Positions 31,730-36,338 of a DNA stretch of 64,000 nucleotides are shown here, piece by piece. The notes under the pieces are model-generated. The model was given only the letters and a program-made list of their open reading frames with translations, did no database searches and had not been told where the DNA came from. The stretch is from Pseudoruegeria sp. HB172150 (GTDB lineage Bacteria > Pseudomonadota > Alphaproteobacteria > Rhodobacterales > Rhodobacteraceae): contig NZ_JAATNG010000001.1 of assembly GCF_013184805.1 (NCBI RefSeq), positions 372,001 through 436,000 on the forward strand. The letters run 5' to 3'. The stretch's first letter is position 1. Each line of letters opens with the position of its first letter. The position numbers and the translations under genes are program-made.

Positions 31730-31939
31730 CTATTCCTCCAACCGGAAGCCGAGTTTCACGCCAACCTGGAAATGCTTGACCTCGCCACCCTCGACATGGC
31801 CGCGGATCTGCGTGACCTCGATCCATTCGATGTGATTGATCGATTTCGACGCGGTGGACACGGCGTTGCGGATGGCGTCGTCGATGGTGGTTTCGGACGA
31901 GCCGTAGACCTCGGTGACGGGATAGACGTGGTTGGACAT
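31730..31939 (-). CDS. Dodecin family flavin-binding protein
   Basis: Dodecins form hollow dodecamers that store flavin or related cofactors. The 69 residues MSNHVYPVTEVYGSSETTID, DAIRNAVSTASKSINHIEWIE and VKHFQVGVKLGFRLEE match the family strand-helix-strand-strand layout. The flavin-stacking Trp is present in IEWIEV. AGGAGG lies upstream of the ATG at 31939. The length is exactly typical. Confidence 0.93.
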   Translation of the reverse strand: MSNHVYPVTEVYGSSETTIDDAIRNAVSTASKSINHIEWIEVTQIRGHVEGGEVKHFQVGVKLGFRLEE

Positions 31940-32014
31940 GAGCGGGCCTCCTTTTGCGGAAGGAGGGTAGGGTGTGGGGGGAGGGAGGCAAGGAGGGGGG
32001 GCGGTTGGCCGGGT

Positions 32015-32038
32015 GGTGGGCAGATTGCCCACCCTACG
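32015..32038 (+). repeat. REP-like hairpin with CCCACCCTACGG tail, copy A
   Basis: GGTGGGCA and TGCCCACC pair across a 3-base loop (32015-32033), and the right arm continues into CTACGG. The same tail follows a longer hairpin at 36293-36338. Short elements with GTAGGGTGGG are dispersed in many proteobacterial genomes. Confidence 0.6.
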
Positions 32039-32146
32039 GTTGCTAAATTACGTCAATGCGCTGGTCGTATTTATGACTAATTTAACTACTATTGGAACGA
32101 TGCAGGGCGGGGTGCTCTGCAAGTAAAAACAATTGGAGGGGTGATA

Positions 32147-32455
32147 GTGAGGAAAGCTGTCCTTTTCGTCGTTTGCCTGATTGCCGTGGCTGGATGTGAA
32201 GCGCAAAAGACACCTGTTCCCACGGGTGGAAGCAGATCAGATGCACTTGTGGAAATGTCATTCGATGTCTCGGCATTGGAGATCCCAGTCGTGGATTGGG
32301 AAACGGCTGCGAAGTCGGCGACCAAACGCTGCAATGCGTGGGGTTATCGGCACGCTGATCCATTTGAAGGCACCAAGACGCAATGCCAATCAACTGACAT
32401 TTACGGTGGTTGCAACTACGCGACCGTGACCCGCGTCTATCAGTGTATCAACTAG
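32147..32455 (+). CDS. YecR-like lipoprotein
   Basis: The 102-residue protein starts (GTG at 32147) MRKAVLFVVCLIAVAGC, with lipobox AVAGC. The C-terminal part KSATKRCNAWGYRHADPFEG, TQCQSTDIYGGCNY and VYQCIN matches the YecR-like family, which has conserved Cys pairs and RC-AWG. GGAGG lies 7 bases upstream of GTG 32147. A GTG at 32141 is too close to it. The function of YecR proteins is unclear. Confidence 0.85.
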   Translation: MRKAVLFVVCLIAVAGCEAQKTPVPTGGSRSDALVEMSFDVSALEIPVVDWETAAKSATKRCNAWGYRHADPFEGTKTQCQSTDIYGGCNYATVTRVYQCIN

Positions 32456-32462
32456 ATGTCTG

Positions 32463-32490
32463 GTAAGGTGCGCATGAATGCGCACCTTAC
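32463..32490. terminator. Perfect 13-bp hairpin after the YecR-like gene
   Basis: GTAAGGTGCGCAT (32463-32475) and its complement (32478-32490) are separated by two bases. It starts 8 bases after the lipoprotein stop and is probably its terminator. The T-tract is weak, so it might work in both directions. Confidence 0.65.
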
Positions 32491-32626
32491 GCTTTCCAAT
32501 TGGCAGTAATCTTCGATCCACCGGGAAATTCGCAAGGGCCGAATGACCCGGAATTCACGGATCAGGCGGTCGAAGGCAGTTTCAGCGAACCGCAGGGCGT
32601 ATGACTGCGCACCCATCGCTTGCTTT

Positions 32627-33400
32627 CTATCTTAATGAACTTAGGACGATTTCCCCGTCGCCATTGAGAAGAACAAACAGCAGATCGCTATCTGGTTCTT
32701 CTGATTCCTCCCGAGTGGCAAAAATGATACCTGCGCTTGTCACAGCAAATATAACGCCAACCTTGGAAATTACCGTTGCCTCAATTTTCTCGCCCGCAAG
32801 AATCCTTTCGGCTCTGGATTTTCCAAGTTCGTGTGAGAAATGGAGTAAGAGAAAAATCGCAACCGGCAGTGTCGCTTTATATAGAAGCTTCAAAAAATCT
32901 TCGAAGTTGACTTTATCAGCAGCTCGATCCAGCAATCCGAAGAAACTTATCCCACTCCCCTCTGAAGCATTGGCATTAACAATTATTGCTACGAAAAATA
33001 TTATTACAAAATATTCCAAATACAAAATGAAATTCCATATTACATTGAACCCAGAAAAGATTATGCAAAACGCCAAAACTGCGCATGCAATTTGCAGAAC
33101 TCTCTGACGCACATCGCCTAGGAATGACAGGGAAAATAGATCTCCGATCCTACCTATGATATGATCTTTCTGCCGGGCAGACGCTTTTTCTAATGCGATG
33201 AGAAAAAGGTTCACTAAATCACCGAATTGCCAGCCGATCAGAGAAGACGCAGCGATAGCCATAGTGAACTGAAAATAATAGTTAAAAACGAAACCCGGAT
33301 CCAGAGCTGGATAGAACCCGCTCGGTAGCACCGACAAGTATCCGTAGATATTTATTGTTCCGATTGATGTAATGGAAGCCAACGCGAGTGCTAGCGTCAC
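32627..33400 (-). CDS. AT-rich polytopic membrane protein of unknown function
   Basis: The frame encodes 257 residues from GTG at 33400. Four or five hydrophobic helices are clear, for example CAVLAFCIIFSGFNVIWNFI, YFVIIFFVAIIVNA, ATLPVAIFLLLHFS and VISKVGVIFAVTSAGIIFA. They alternate with charged loops. Its A+T content and codon use (many AAA, ATT and TTA) differ sharply from neighbouring genes, a sign of recent acquisition. It lies immediately downstream of the lepA fragment. The start is uncertain because no other good site lies upstream. Family unknown. Confidence 0.65.
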   Translation of the reverse strand: MTLALALASITSIGTINIYGYLSVLPSGFYPALDPGFVFNYYFQFTMAIAASSLIGWQFGDLVNLFLIALEKASARQKDHIIGRIGDLFSLSFLGDVRQRVLQIACAVLAFCIIFSGFNVIWNFILYLEYFVIIFFVAIIVNANASEGSGISFFGLLDRAADKVNFEDFLKLLYKATLPVAIFLLLHFSHELGKSRAERILAGEKIEATVISKVGVIFAVTSAGIIFATREESEEPDSDLLFVLLNGDGEIVLSSLR

Positions 33401-33436: not shown

Positions 33437-33688
33437 CCTTCACCCATCCATCTTCAAGGCATTAATAAACGTCTCCTGTGGAATATCAACCTTCCCGAAC
33501 TGGCGCATCTTCTTCTTGCTGGCCTTCTGCTTTTCCGGAAGCTTCTTTTTCCAGGTGGCGTCGCCGCCGTAGCATTTCGCCGTCACGTGCTTGCGCAGCG
33601 CAGCAAGGGTCTCGCGCGCGATGACCTTGCCGCCGATGGCCGCGTGGACGGGGATCCTGAACATGTGGCGGGGATCGGCTGTTTCAGA
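33437..33688 (-). pseudogene. lepA: 5'-truncated duplicate of the lepA 3' end
   Basis: The 74-residue frame at 33440-33664 matches the C-terminus of the intact lepA at 34222 with 66 of 74 residues identical, counted by eye. The match continues in nucleotides past the stop (CACCCATCC) and upstream to about 33688, where a one-base deletion breaks the frame and similarity ends. All GTPase domains are absent, so it cannot be functional LepA. Its divergence argues against a very recent tandem duplication. Confidence 0.9.
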
Positions 33689-33764
33689 CGCGCAGGGTGC
33701 TCGTTCCAGCGCGCCGGGACGTGGTGGTGCGCATGCATGCGCGTTCCTCGGTTGCTCCCCAAAG

Positions 33765-33792
33765 TTGTTTTTCGCTCAATTTATGGTAGAAT
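33765..33792 (+). promoter_or_regulatory. Candidate promoter of the cysteine-rich secreted protein gene
   Basis: TTGTTT (33765-33770) and TAGAAT (33787-33792) are separated by 16 bases and lie about 40 bases upstream of the ATG at 33831. The AT-rich surroundings fit a sigma-70 promoter. Confidence 0.5.
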
Positions 33793-33830
33793 GAAGGTCT
33801 TCACACTTGATTCCCAAAAAGGATATTGTC

Positions 33831-34130
33831 ATGCGGTTTTTCGCACTCTCTTTTCTGTTGTCTGTCTTCCTGGCCACGGGTGCCACGGCTCAGAACCAAC
33901 CCCCGGCAAATGCCCAGCAGATGTCCGATCTCACGCAGGCGATCGGGAACCTCACGGTGCTTCTGAACAACATCAATCGGGGCGCTGCGCCGGCCGGATT
34001 GACCAGCCCGGGCGGGACATCCATGACCTGCACGAAGTTCTGCAAGGACTGCCAGAGCTGCGAGTCCTATTGCTGCGAAGCGACCGATCCCGATGACCTC
34101 GATCTGGTCATCATAACCGACGACGAGTGA
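33831..34130 (+). CDS. Secreted cysteine-rich small protein of unknown function
   Basis: The 99-residue protein has a Sec signal (MRFFALSFLLSVFLATGATAQ) and a helical, Gln/Asn-rich segment (ANAQQMSDLTQAIGNLTVLL). A Cys cluster CTKFCKDCQSCESYCC holds six Cys in 16 residues, followed by an acidic tail ending DDE. The Cys cluster could hold disulfides or a metal. AAGGA precedes the ATG by about 7 bases. It lies between the two lepA copies on the opposite strand. I do not recognise a family. Confidence 0.75.
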   Translation: MRFFALSFLLSVFLATGATAQNQPPANAQQMSDLTQAIGNLTVLLNNINRGAAPAGLTSPGGTSMTCTKFCKDCQSCESYCCEATDPDDLDLVIITDDE

Positions 34131-34192
34131 GGCCCGCCGCGCCTAGCGGATCAAGACCGCACCGGGCGCGGCCGGTGAAACCGTCTTCGATC

Positions 34193-34225
34193 GTGATCCC
34201 CGATGCCCGCGCGATCGGGGATCAC
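34193..34225. terminator. 12-bp hairpin at the lepA stop / small-gene boundary
   Basis: GTGATCCCCGAT (34193-34204) and ATCGGGGATCAC (34214-34225) pair around a 9-base loop. The right arm includes the lepA stop codon. There is no T-tract, so it may protect a 3' end or separate the two convergent transcripts. Confidence 0.5.
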
Positions 34226-36021
34226 CCATCCATCTTCAGCGCATTGATGAACGCTTCCTGCGGGATGTCGACCTTGCCGAACTGGCGCATCTTCTTCTTG
34301 CCGGCCTTCTGCTTTTCCAGAAGCTTCTTCTTCCGGGTGGCGTCGCCGCCGTAGCATTTCGCGGTCACGTCCTTGCGCAGCGCAGCCAGGGTCTCGCGCG
34401 CGATGACCTTGCCGCCGATGGCCGCCTGGATCGGGATCTTGAACATGTGGCGGGGGATCAGCTCTTTCAGCTTCTCGACCATGGCGCGGCCGCGCATTTC
34501 GGCGCGGTCGCGGTGGACCATGATGGAGAGCGCGTCGACCGGCTCCTCGTTCACGAGGATCGACATCTTGACGAGGTTGTCCTGCCGGTAGCCGGTGAGC
34601 TGGTAGTCGAAGCTGGCATAGCCCTTGGTGACCGATTTCAGCCGGTCGTAGAAGTCGAAGACCACCTCGTTCAGCGGCAGGTCGTAGACCACCATGGCGC
34701 GGGTGCCGGCATAGGTCAGATCCTCCTGAATGCCGCGGCGGTCCTGGCAGAGTTTCAGGACGTCGCCGAGATATTCGTCGGGGACGAGGATCGTCGCCTT
34801 GATGCGCGGTTCCTCGATATGGGCGATGGTGGTGATGTCGGGCATGTCGGCGGGATTGTGCAGCTCGCGCGTGGTGCCGTCCTTCATGTGGATGTGGTAG
34901 ATCACGCTGGGCGCGGTGGTGATCAGGTCGATGTCGTATTCGCGTTCGAGCCGGTCGCGGACGACTTCGAGGTGCAGGAGGCCGAGGAAGCCGCAGCGGA
35001 AGCCGAAGCCGAGGGCGGCGGAGGTTTCCATCTCGAAGGTAAAGGAGGCGTCGTTGAGGGCGAGCTTTTCTATCGCGACGCGCAGGTCCTCGAAATCGGC
35101 GGCGTCGACGGGGAAGAGGCCGCAGAAGACCACCGGGACCGAGGGCTTGAAGCCGGGGAGCGGTTTGTCGGTGCCCTTCTTCTCGAGGGTGATGGTGTCG
35201 CCGACCTTGGTGTCGCGGACCTGCTTGATCGAGCCGGTCCAGATGCCGATCTCGCCGGGGCCAAGCTCGGGGATGTCGACCATCGCGGGTTTCAGCACAG
35301 CGAGCTTGTCGACGCCATAGACGGCGCCGGTCTGCATCATCCTGATGCGGTCGCCCTTGCGGATGACGCCGTCCATGACGCGGATCAGGACGACGACGCC
35401 GAGATAGGGGTCGTACCAGCTGTCCACGAGCATAGCCTTGAGGGGCGCGTTGCGGTCGCCCTTGGGGGCGGGGAGGCGCTGGACGATGGCTTCCAGCACG
35501 TCGGGGATGCCGAGGCCGGTCTTGGCGGAGATCTCGATGGCGTCGTGGGCCTCGATGCCGATGACGTCCTCGATCTGTTCCTTCACCCGCTCCGGTTCGG
35601 CGGCGGGGAGGTCGATCTTGTTGAGGACCGGCACGATCTCGTGATCCGCCTCGATGGCCTGGTAGACGTTGGCGAGCGTCTGGGCCTCGACCCCCTGCGT
35701 GGCGTCGACGACCAGCAGCGAGCCCTCGACGGCGCGCATGCTGCGGCTGACCTCGTAGGCGAAGTCGACATGGCCGGGCGTGTCGATGAGGTTGAGCGTG
35801 TAGGTGTGGCCGTCCTGCGCCGGATAGTCGATCCGGACGGTATTGGCCTTGATGGTGATCCCGCGCTCGCGCTCGATGTCCATGGCATCGAGGAGCTGTT
35901 CCTTCATGTCGCGTTCGGCCACGGTGCCGGTGAGCTGGATCAGCCGGTCGGCAAGGGTGGATTTCCCGTGGTCGATATGGGCGACGATGGAGAAATTGCG
36001 GATGTAAGCGAGGTCGGTCAT
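34222..36021 (-). CDS. lepA: Elongation factor 4 (LepA)
   Basis: LepA is the ribosome-associated GTPase that remodels stalled or mistranslocated ribosomes. The 599 residues start [22 protein letters not shown] (G1 P-loop AHIDHGKST). DTPGHVDF (G3) and [12 protein letters not shown] (G4) follow, and the C-terminus has the LepA-specific [21 protein letters not shown]. The start at 36021 gives the usual family length. Its 3' end has the second, truncated copy 500 bases downstream. Confidence 0.96.
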
Positions 36022-36250: not shown

Positions 36251-36292
36251 AGTGGTTCAGCCCGGCGTATGCTTCGGCTGGGTGGCACGAAT

Positions 36293-36338
36293 GGTGGGTG
36301 AACCCGCGCCGTGCGGCGCGGGACCACCCACCCTACGG
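36293..36338 (+). repeat. REP-like hairpin with CCCACCCTACGG tail, copy B
   Basis: An outer stem GGTGGGT/ACCCACC (36293-36299 with 36326-36332) encloses an inner 9-bp stem CCCGCGCCG/CGGCGCGGG. The 3' side continues CTACGG, as at 32033-32038. Both copies have the same orientation on the plus strand and lie in non-coding sequence. Confidence 0.65.

Follow-up and report, generated by a model that had tools for sequence, protein, structure and literature searches.

The window analyzed here is a 64,000-nucleotide stretch of the genome of Pseudoruegeria sp. HB172150 (G000:C1:372001-436000, where G000 is the source genome, a 5.06-Mb assembly of 21 contigs), and our subject is the 3' end of its lepA gene together with the sequence directly behind it. 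Behind the intact lepA lies a spacer that holds a small cysteine-rich open reading frame (ORF) on the opposite strand, then a 5'-truncated second copy of the lepA end, and beyond the copy an AT-rich ORF (Table 1). This is the layout given in a preliminary description of this DNA, which had also reported that the last 74 codons of lepA recur at 33440-33664, and indeed a 74-amino-acid ORF on the reverse strand there matches the intact gene at 66 of 74 residues. The broken second lepA end is most likely the scar of gene swapping directly behind lepA. We compared the locus with the genomes of four congeners (G001, G002, G003, and G004; five genus genomes in all) and with wider samples of the family described below. 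The closest named relative of the LepA protein is from an unclassified Rhodobacteraceae metagenome-assembled genome (92% identity), and the best 80 matches are nearly all from Rhodobacteraceae or Rhodobacterales.

Table 1. Features at and behind the 3' end of lepA, with positions numbered along the window.
Feature	Position	Strand	Remarks
Intact lepA (elongation factor 4, 599 amino acids)	34222..36021	-	96% amino acid identity to the nearest of 60 other genomes searched
Final ~19 codons and stop of intact lepA (end haplotype A)	34222..34281	-	differs from G004 at 2 of 57 nucleotides, from G003 at 3 of 57, from G001 at 13 of 57
Spacer separating the lepA ends (534 bp)	33688..34221		single occurrence in own genome
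Small cysteine-rich ORF	33831..34130	+	listed from TTG at 33807; signal-peptide-like N terminus, judged by eye
Degenerate doublet resembling repetitive extragenic palindromic (REP) sequences	33688..33756		adjoins truncated edge of copy; palindrome with 3 mismatches; suggestive
Truncated copy, 5' three quarters	33500..33687	-	own lepA; differences: 9 amino acid, 4 synonymous, one 1-bp deletion
Truncated copy, final ~19 codons and stop (end haplotype B)	33440..33499	-	lower GC content at third codon positions (GC3); 10 of 11 differing codons synonymous
AT-rich cargo ORF (257 amino acids)	32627..33400	-	same orientation as lepA
Remnant around 3' end of putative REP-associated transposase-like gene	32501..32625	+	full gene behind lepA in G004 and G002; E = 1e-6 at the DNA level but only 0.06 at the protein level
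Perfect REP palindrome	32467..32486		sites with at most 2 mismatches: G002, 24; G004, 21; own genome, 2; G001, 1; G003, 0
Dodecin gene	31730..32032	-	directly behind lepA in congener G003

The truncated copy (33440-33687, reverse strand) repeats the last 249 nucleotides of lepA (34222-34470) at 90% nucleotide identity with one 1-bp deletion, and a repeat of 248 nucleotides is far beyond random expectation (E = 3.6e-92). Similarity of the copy to 29 relatives ends at 33686 or 33687 in 27 of them, which agrees with the limit of about 33688 proposed previously; in the two exceptions the match extends to 33700 (locus L028) and 33757 (locus L004). Within 33500-33687, the copy differs from the intact gene at 14 positions, and at 9 of these its state is absent from the 29 relatives. 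This part nevertheless carries 4 of the 5 bases that set the G000 lepA apart from those of all four congeners and, because these private bases are shared, it can be recognized as the genome's own lepA in a decayed state. Synonymous differences between copy and intact gene are distributed unevenly, affecting 4 of 63 codons in the 5' part versus 10 of 19 at the end (Fisher p = 2.6e-5). The truncated copy is a mosaic of the genome's own decayed lepA and a last stretch of ~19 codons from another haplotype.

These observations bear on the simplest account of a second gene end, namely a plain tandem duplication in the chromosome with one copy decaying and the AT-rich gene arriving separately. The G000-private bases in the 5' part of the copy are what a duplication would produce, and the changes there look neutral (9 amino acid versus 4 synonymous). 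However, 10 synonymous differences with a single amino acid change in the last 19 codons are not decay, the spacer is found only once in the genome, and the copy is followed by AT-rich sequence in six other genera too; duplication alone is therefore an unlikely origin. The preliminary description had taken grouping of the copy with the genome's own lepA, or the presence of both copies in all relatives, as arguments against an insertion. Most of the copy does group with the genome's own lepA, and only one of the five genus genomes, G000, has a second tail.

To describe the recurrence of this layout, a 130-amino-acid LepA-tail query was searched against 394 genomes of the family (G000 and 393 others), of which 363 yielded a match and 12 of the 363 yielded two. 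Five of the 12 were not counted as scars: the second match was on a different contig in G076, was far away and only 48% identical in G393, was a split match at a contig start in G147, and fell at contig ends in G068 and G217. Among the 61 relatives listed for partial tails, the only other one was in G043, where the second lepA match stops at the contig end and was likewise not accepted. The second match in G076 (L198 1501-1851) spans 117 amino acids at 86% identity within a 185-amino-acid open frame. The remaining seven genomes (G000, G066, G129, G135, G258, G310, and G373), each from a different genus, share the order of intact lepA, spacer, truncated tail, and AT-rich ORF, and the scar layout thus recurs in seven genera. 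In these, the second tail is truncated, usually decayed, and lies on the same strand 64-583 bp behind the intact gene, with the left edges of the tails in G373 and G310 being approximate. AT-rich sequence follows the tail in all seven; its main ORF encodes 206-402 amino acids at a GC content of 0.40-0.49 and starts 2-319 bp past the tail, and GC content returns toward the host level after ~0.9-1.5 kb. Pfam searches of the six ORFs outside of the window identified HARE-HTH, DUF4062, DUF3800, and Tle1-like phospholipase domains in four and no match in two, and a PADLOC search of the same six gave one match (PDC-S60). Traces of a mosaic end were seen in other copies. The G373 copy is identical to its own lepA for ~40 nucleotides and then shows synonymous changes mostly toward A/T, much like the window; the G258 copy ends in a C-terminal variant absent from its own lepA; and changes in the G066 copy are clustered in the last codons. 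An assembly or contamination artefact can be all but dismissed given that the window lies on a single 2.44-Mb contig, that the decayed copy has a mosaic of its own, and that the same layout is present in seven genera.

The scars occur at a position where foreign genes are common. We assembled 109 flank loci from two genome collections that may overlap, 107 of which had a readable lepA end (two were filtered out); the loci are phylogenetically non-independent, ORFs were called mechanically, and a single control gene, prpE, was used. A cargo was scored as AT-rich when the longest ORF near lepA had a GC content more than 0.08 below that of lepA (L093 was unscorable and was entered as no). By this measure, 52 of the 100 loci with enough sequence and an ORF have an AT-rich first ORF behind lepA, when compared to 7 of 103 in the mirror test upstream of the gene. 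The comparison with prpE, made in much the same set of genomes, gave an AT-rich ORF behind prpE in 1 of 28 and behind lepA in 15 of 27. Relative to lepA, the GC content across 71 loci is lower by 0.050 at 0-800 bp behind the gene and higher by 0.009 in front of it and by 0.020 at 1500-2300 bp behind it. The cargos are diverse, as the 52 AT-rich cargos and the two window ORFs (54 proteins) fall into 49 blastp clusters and are mostly unrelated. Forty-one of the 52 are oriented as lepA, and 11 of these begin within 10 nucleotides of its stop codon. Pfam domains from 17 families were detected among the 52 cargos (E = 0.001), with no integrase among them, although serine recombinases and wider flanks were not searched. 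These data show that the lepA 3' flank is a hotspot for diverse foreign genes that is enriched over the control positions. The remark in the preliminary description that lepA is an uncommon insertion target does not hold among these relatives.

Some of the cargo genes resemble genes for defence against viruses. Matches to PADLOC models (E <= 1e-5) were identified for 15 of the 52 AT-rich cargos, or about three in ten. The models were RT_UG13a, PDC-S15, PDC-S25 (SIR2/ThsA-like), PDC-S31 (2 cargos), PDC-S33, PDC-S42 (2), PDC-S59 (2), NsnA, NucC, PycTM, TIR, and SoFic, where PDC presumably stands for 'phage defence candidate'. Three of the 52 cargos were scanned at 1e-3 and none of these matched. 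In the upstream control of 103 genes, each of the families listed (25 of 61) matches in one member, in all cases to RtcR or methyltransferase models. These similarities suggest that the hotspot cargo sometimes comprises virus-defence-like genes.

The end of lepA itself is linked to the composition of the cargo. We took the difference in GC3 between the last 20 lepA codons and the gene body, regressed out body GC3, and compared the result to the GC content of the next 600 bp, which gave a positive correlation (rho = 0.52, p = 2e-8, n = 102 loci; the test was made without tree-model correction) that persisted when loci were thinned to 78 diverged representatives (rho = 0.55). The correlation weakens when the 20-codon window is shifted 5 and 10 codons away from the stop (rho = 0.41 and 0.23), and no significant positive correlation was detected in windows starting at least 15 codons from it. 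In smaller bins, codons 0-5, 5-10, and 15-20 from the stop correlate with downstream GC (rho = 0.41, 0.44, and 0.34), and the bins at codons 20-25 and 25-30 do not. Codons 7-20, which are mostly free of ribosome-binding signal, give a rho of 0.44. Of all windows, the last 20 codons also show the poorest agreement with the remainder of the gene (rho = 0.19, when compared to 0.27-0.54 for 17 other windows, pairwise across 85 genes). The limit of this effect, ~20 codons before the stop, coincides with the mosaic edge of the copy in the window and with the most conserved of the twenty 5-codon bins in the last 100 codons of lepA, KKKMR (96.2% conserved; codons 70-75 rank second at 96.1%). The simplest cause of the limit would be homologous recombination anchored at the conserved KKKMR stretch.

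A sharp limit ~20 codons from the stop would also suit a site-specific integrative element that uses the lepA 3' end as its attB and carries a replacement end; the copy would then be the former end, stranded at the distal att site. A whole gene followed by an old 3' end is reminiscent of elements whose target is the end of a gene, and the preliminary description had proposed a circular element of this kind. However, the seven matches to the integrase family PF00589 in G000 all lie outside of the window, the nearest ~20 kb to the left (serine recombinases were not searched). Further, the longest exact repeats that the lepA end shares with DNA located 0.3-4 kb downstream average 9.3 nucleotides across 74 loci versus 9.8 for interior lepA controls, and thus show no att-like excess. 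The copy moreover extends 189 nucleotides upstream of the mosaic edge, where it is the genome's own lepA. We consider an integrative element improbable. Of the earlier proposal, an insertion scar with cargo and two lepA ends of different histories is retained, and the circular element is not. ARAGORN detected no tRNA genes within the 64-kb window.

Collectively, these findings are best explained, with a probability that we put at roughly 0.62, by cargo exchange via lepA homology, in which an illegitimate join on one side occasionally leaves the old tail stranded along with its cargo. Single, mostly AT-rich cargo genes would be exchanged behind lepA, and would usually enter by homologous recombination with the lepA-side crossover in or near KKKMRQFG, ~20 codons before the stop, so that the last ~20 codons would move with the cargo. 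In the window, a first such event would have given lepA end B and the AT-rich gene, which probably encodes a membrane protein. In a second event, a fragment in which the corresponding lepA region bore end A and was followed by the cysteine-rich gene and the REP doublet would have recombined into lepA on one side, and its other side would have been joined without homology upstream of the old lepA tail. The outcome would be a new end on the intact gene and an old tail that persists as a truncated, decaying copy still linked to its old cargo. The homologous side would correspond to the mosaic edge near 33500, and the other side to the abrupt end at 33687; a pre-event donor sequence was not found. 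From this pattern we infer the order of events, the one-sided illegitimate joining, a conspecific donor, and transformation or a gene transfer agent as the vehicle. A more far-reaching version, which we hold to be possible but doubtful, is that the lepA 3' end serves as a portable homology handle. Rhodobacterales would then share a pool of single-gene cassettes, each with the last ~20 lepA codons and passed between cells through transformation or gene transfer agents, and displaced tails and older cassettes would be archived in order by one-sided exchanges.

Which of the two ends is the older one was evaluated with the 50 of 109 lepA tails that could be parsed. Among the four congeners, end B is nearest to that of G001 (8 of 57 nucleotides differ), although three more distant loci tie, and end A is nearest to those of G004 and G003 (2 and 3 of 57) and far from that of G001 (13 of 57). 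At four-fold degenerate sites, G001 is also the congener nearest to G000 in both the lepA body and prpE (0.24 and 0.32), with the other three at 0.38-0.55. This mildly favors the copy's end (B) as the old one and the end of the intact gene (A) as imported, the same polarity as that proposed in the preliminary description. The polarity depends on 57 nucleotides and four congeners, and it is contradicted by LepA protein identity, which is 96% with G004 and 90% with G001. Because amino acid identity points opposite to the four-fold sites, we hold this polarity with low confidence. In G001, the sequence directly behind lepA (L036 1-649) has a lower GC content (0.52), no ATG-started ORF of 60 amino acids was found in it, and the lepA end resembles the copy in the window.

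Several other observations weigh against exchange by way of lepA homology. Codons 10-15 from the lepA stop are uncorrelated with the cargo (rho = 0.11, p = 0.27), and six genome pairs have related cargos without having more similar lepA ends, which speaks against direct exchange among the sampled genomes. A foreign-looking end is seen in the copies of the window and G373, and less surely in those of G258 and G066, but not in G129, G135, or G310. Three of the seven AT-rich ORFs (G135, G310, and G373) oppose lepA and four are co-oriented with it. The six scars other than the window have a short spacer (GC content of 0.51-0.71) beside lepA rather than fresh AT-rich cargo. That an empty site had come back in such cases is unsupported because no spacer is repeated beyond the cargo: all seven spacers score no higher against beyond-cargo DNA than the best of 20 shuffles, and blastn gave short, weak matches only (best E = 0.001, G310). 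Finally, 37 of the 52 AT-rich cargos lack a PADLOC match, as do both window ORFs, which likewise have no match in PHROGs.

REP elements offer a different source for the illegitimate junction, in which breakage at the doublet at 33688-33756 and the associated transposase would have made the join. The doublet directly adjoins the truncated edge of the copy, and it is one of the three REP-like spots that score best in the window, which together flank the old cargo and the lepA copy. In addition, REP arrays and a transposase-like gene lie behind lepA in G002 and G004, and a REP-like palindrome is present in the G310 spacer. On the other hand, the doublet is degenerate, with three mismatches in its palindrome, and the transposase-like gene, presumably a REP-associated one, had no Pfam match. 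A REP-mediated join thus seems improbable. In the two congeners, the REP copies lie beside the transposase-like gene (L034 11041-12310 and L033 8040-8330), and in G002 the first REP starts immediately past the lepA stop codon. The inspected parts of the G258 spacer behind lepA (L212) hold another palindromic repeat, of the CCCCGCGAAAGCGGGG type, and repeats near the lepA end can therefore belong to different families.

Gene exchange at core genes has precedents, although at other sites. Oliveira et al. (2017; PMC5635113) have described hotspots of horizontal gene transfer that lack mobile elements and undergo recombination at the core genes beside them. Like the lepA site, these place variable foreign genes next to a core gene that shows recombination, and they do so without an integrase; at lepA, none was found by the PF00589 search of the window or among the Pfam matches of the 52 cargos. 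At the lepA site, a single short gene is the usual occupant and seems to take the last ~20 codons of its core-gene neighbor along, and the main text of that paper does not mention lepA. Core defence hotspots have been described in Pseudomonas aeruginosa (PMC10250203) and E. coli (PMC10121019; lepA is absent from its main text). They share with the lepA site a core-gene-flanked position and a mix of unknown genes with diverse anti-phage systems, which at lepA are candidates. However, they are islands in one species, whereas the lepA site has ~1-kb occupants across many genera. For orphan immunity arrays of the Vibrio cholerae type VI secretion system, Kirchberger et al. (PMC5361080) describe shifted-back 3' ends and propose an event resembling homology-facilitated illegitimate recombination as their cause. 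There, a new module beside a conserved gene likewise displaces the old 3' end and old cargo downstream, but the genes involved encode effectors and immunity proteins, whereas lepA encodes a housekeeping translation factor and its cargo genes are unrelated. Integrases can also insert genomic islands at one end of a protein-coding gene, such as the 5' end of dusA (PMC4482086). Such islands share with the lepA site the type of target, but at lepA no integrase was found and there was no excess of att-like repeats. The lepA flank is apparently a new site of a known kind, a probably integrase-free hotspot at a core gene, with displacement scars. A literature search found no paper describing a lepA hotspot; papers with a text match to 'lepa' were only partly checked, and in those checked the match was an author name (LePage, Lepanse).

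If swapping behind lepA occurs as proposed, an odd half-gene becomes the marker of an exchange site and truncated lepA tails become a record of past swaps. The gene behind lepA in Rhodobacterales would then be a short, easily located candidate for a one-gene defence system, and the sharp limit at ~20 codons lets the recombination mechanism be tested by sequence alone. Should the lepA end in fact act as a portable handle, unknown one-gene defence systems would await discovery at this untapped site, and the orphan genes of the window may be among them. No relative of the AT-rich protein was detected in the 393 other family genomes or in the genome_contigs, plasmid, phage, and viral contig collections, and an AlphaFold model of this protein alone was unusably poor (predicted local distance difference test score, pLDDT, of 41.9). 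For the cysteine-rich protein, searches of the plasmid and viral contig collections and of the same 393 genomes found no relative (phages and genome_contigs were not searched).

Two further features were observed near the locus. A gene for a YecR-like lipoprotein (32141-32452, forward strand; PF13992, E = 7.5e-18) lies in lower-GC DNA between the REP/transposase remnant and the dodecin gene. In front of lepA, a palindromic repeat at 36288-36337 comprises two 24-nucleotide arms that are 83% complementary, and it has a match in G001 (80.6% over 62 bp).

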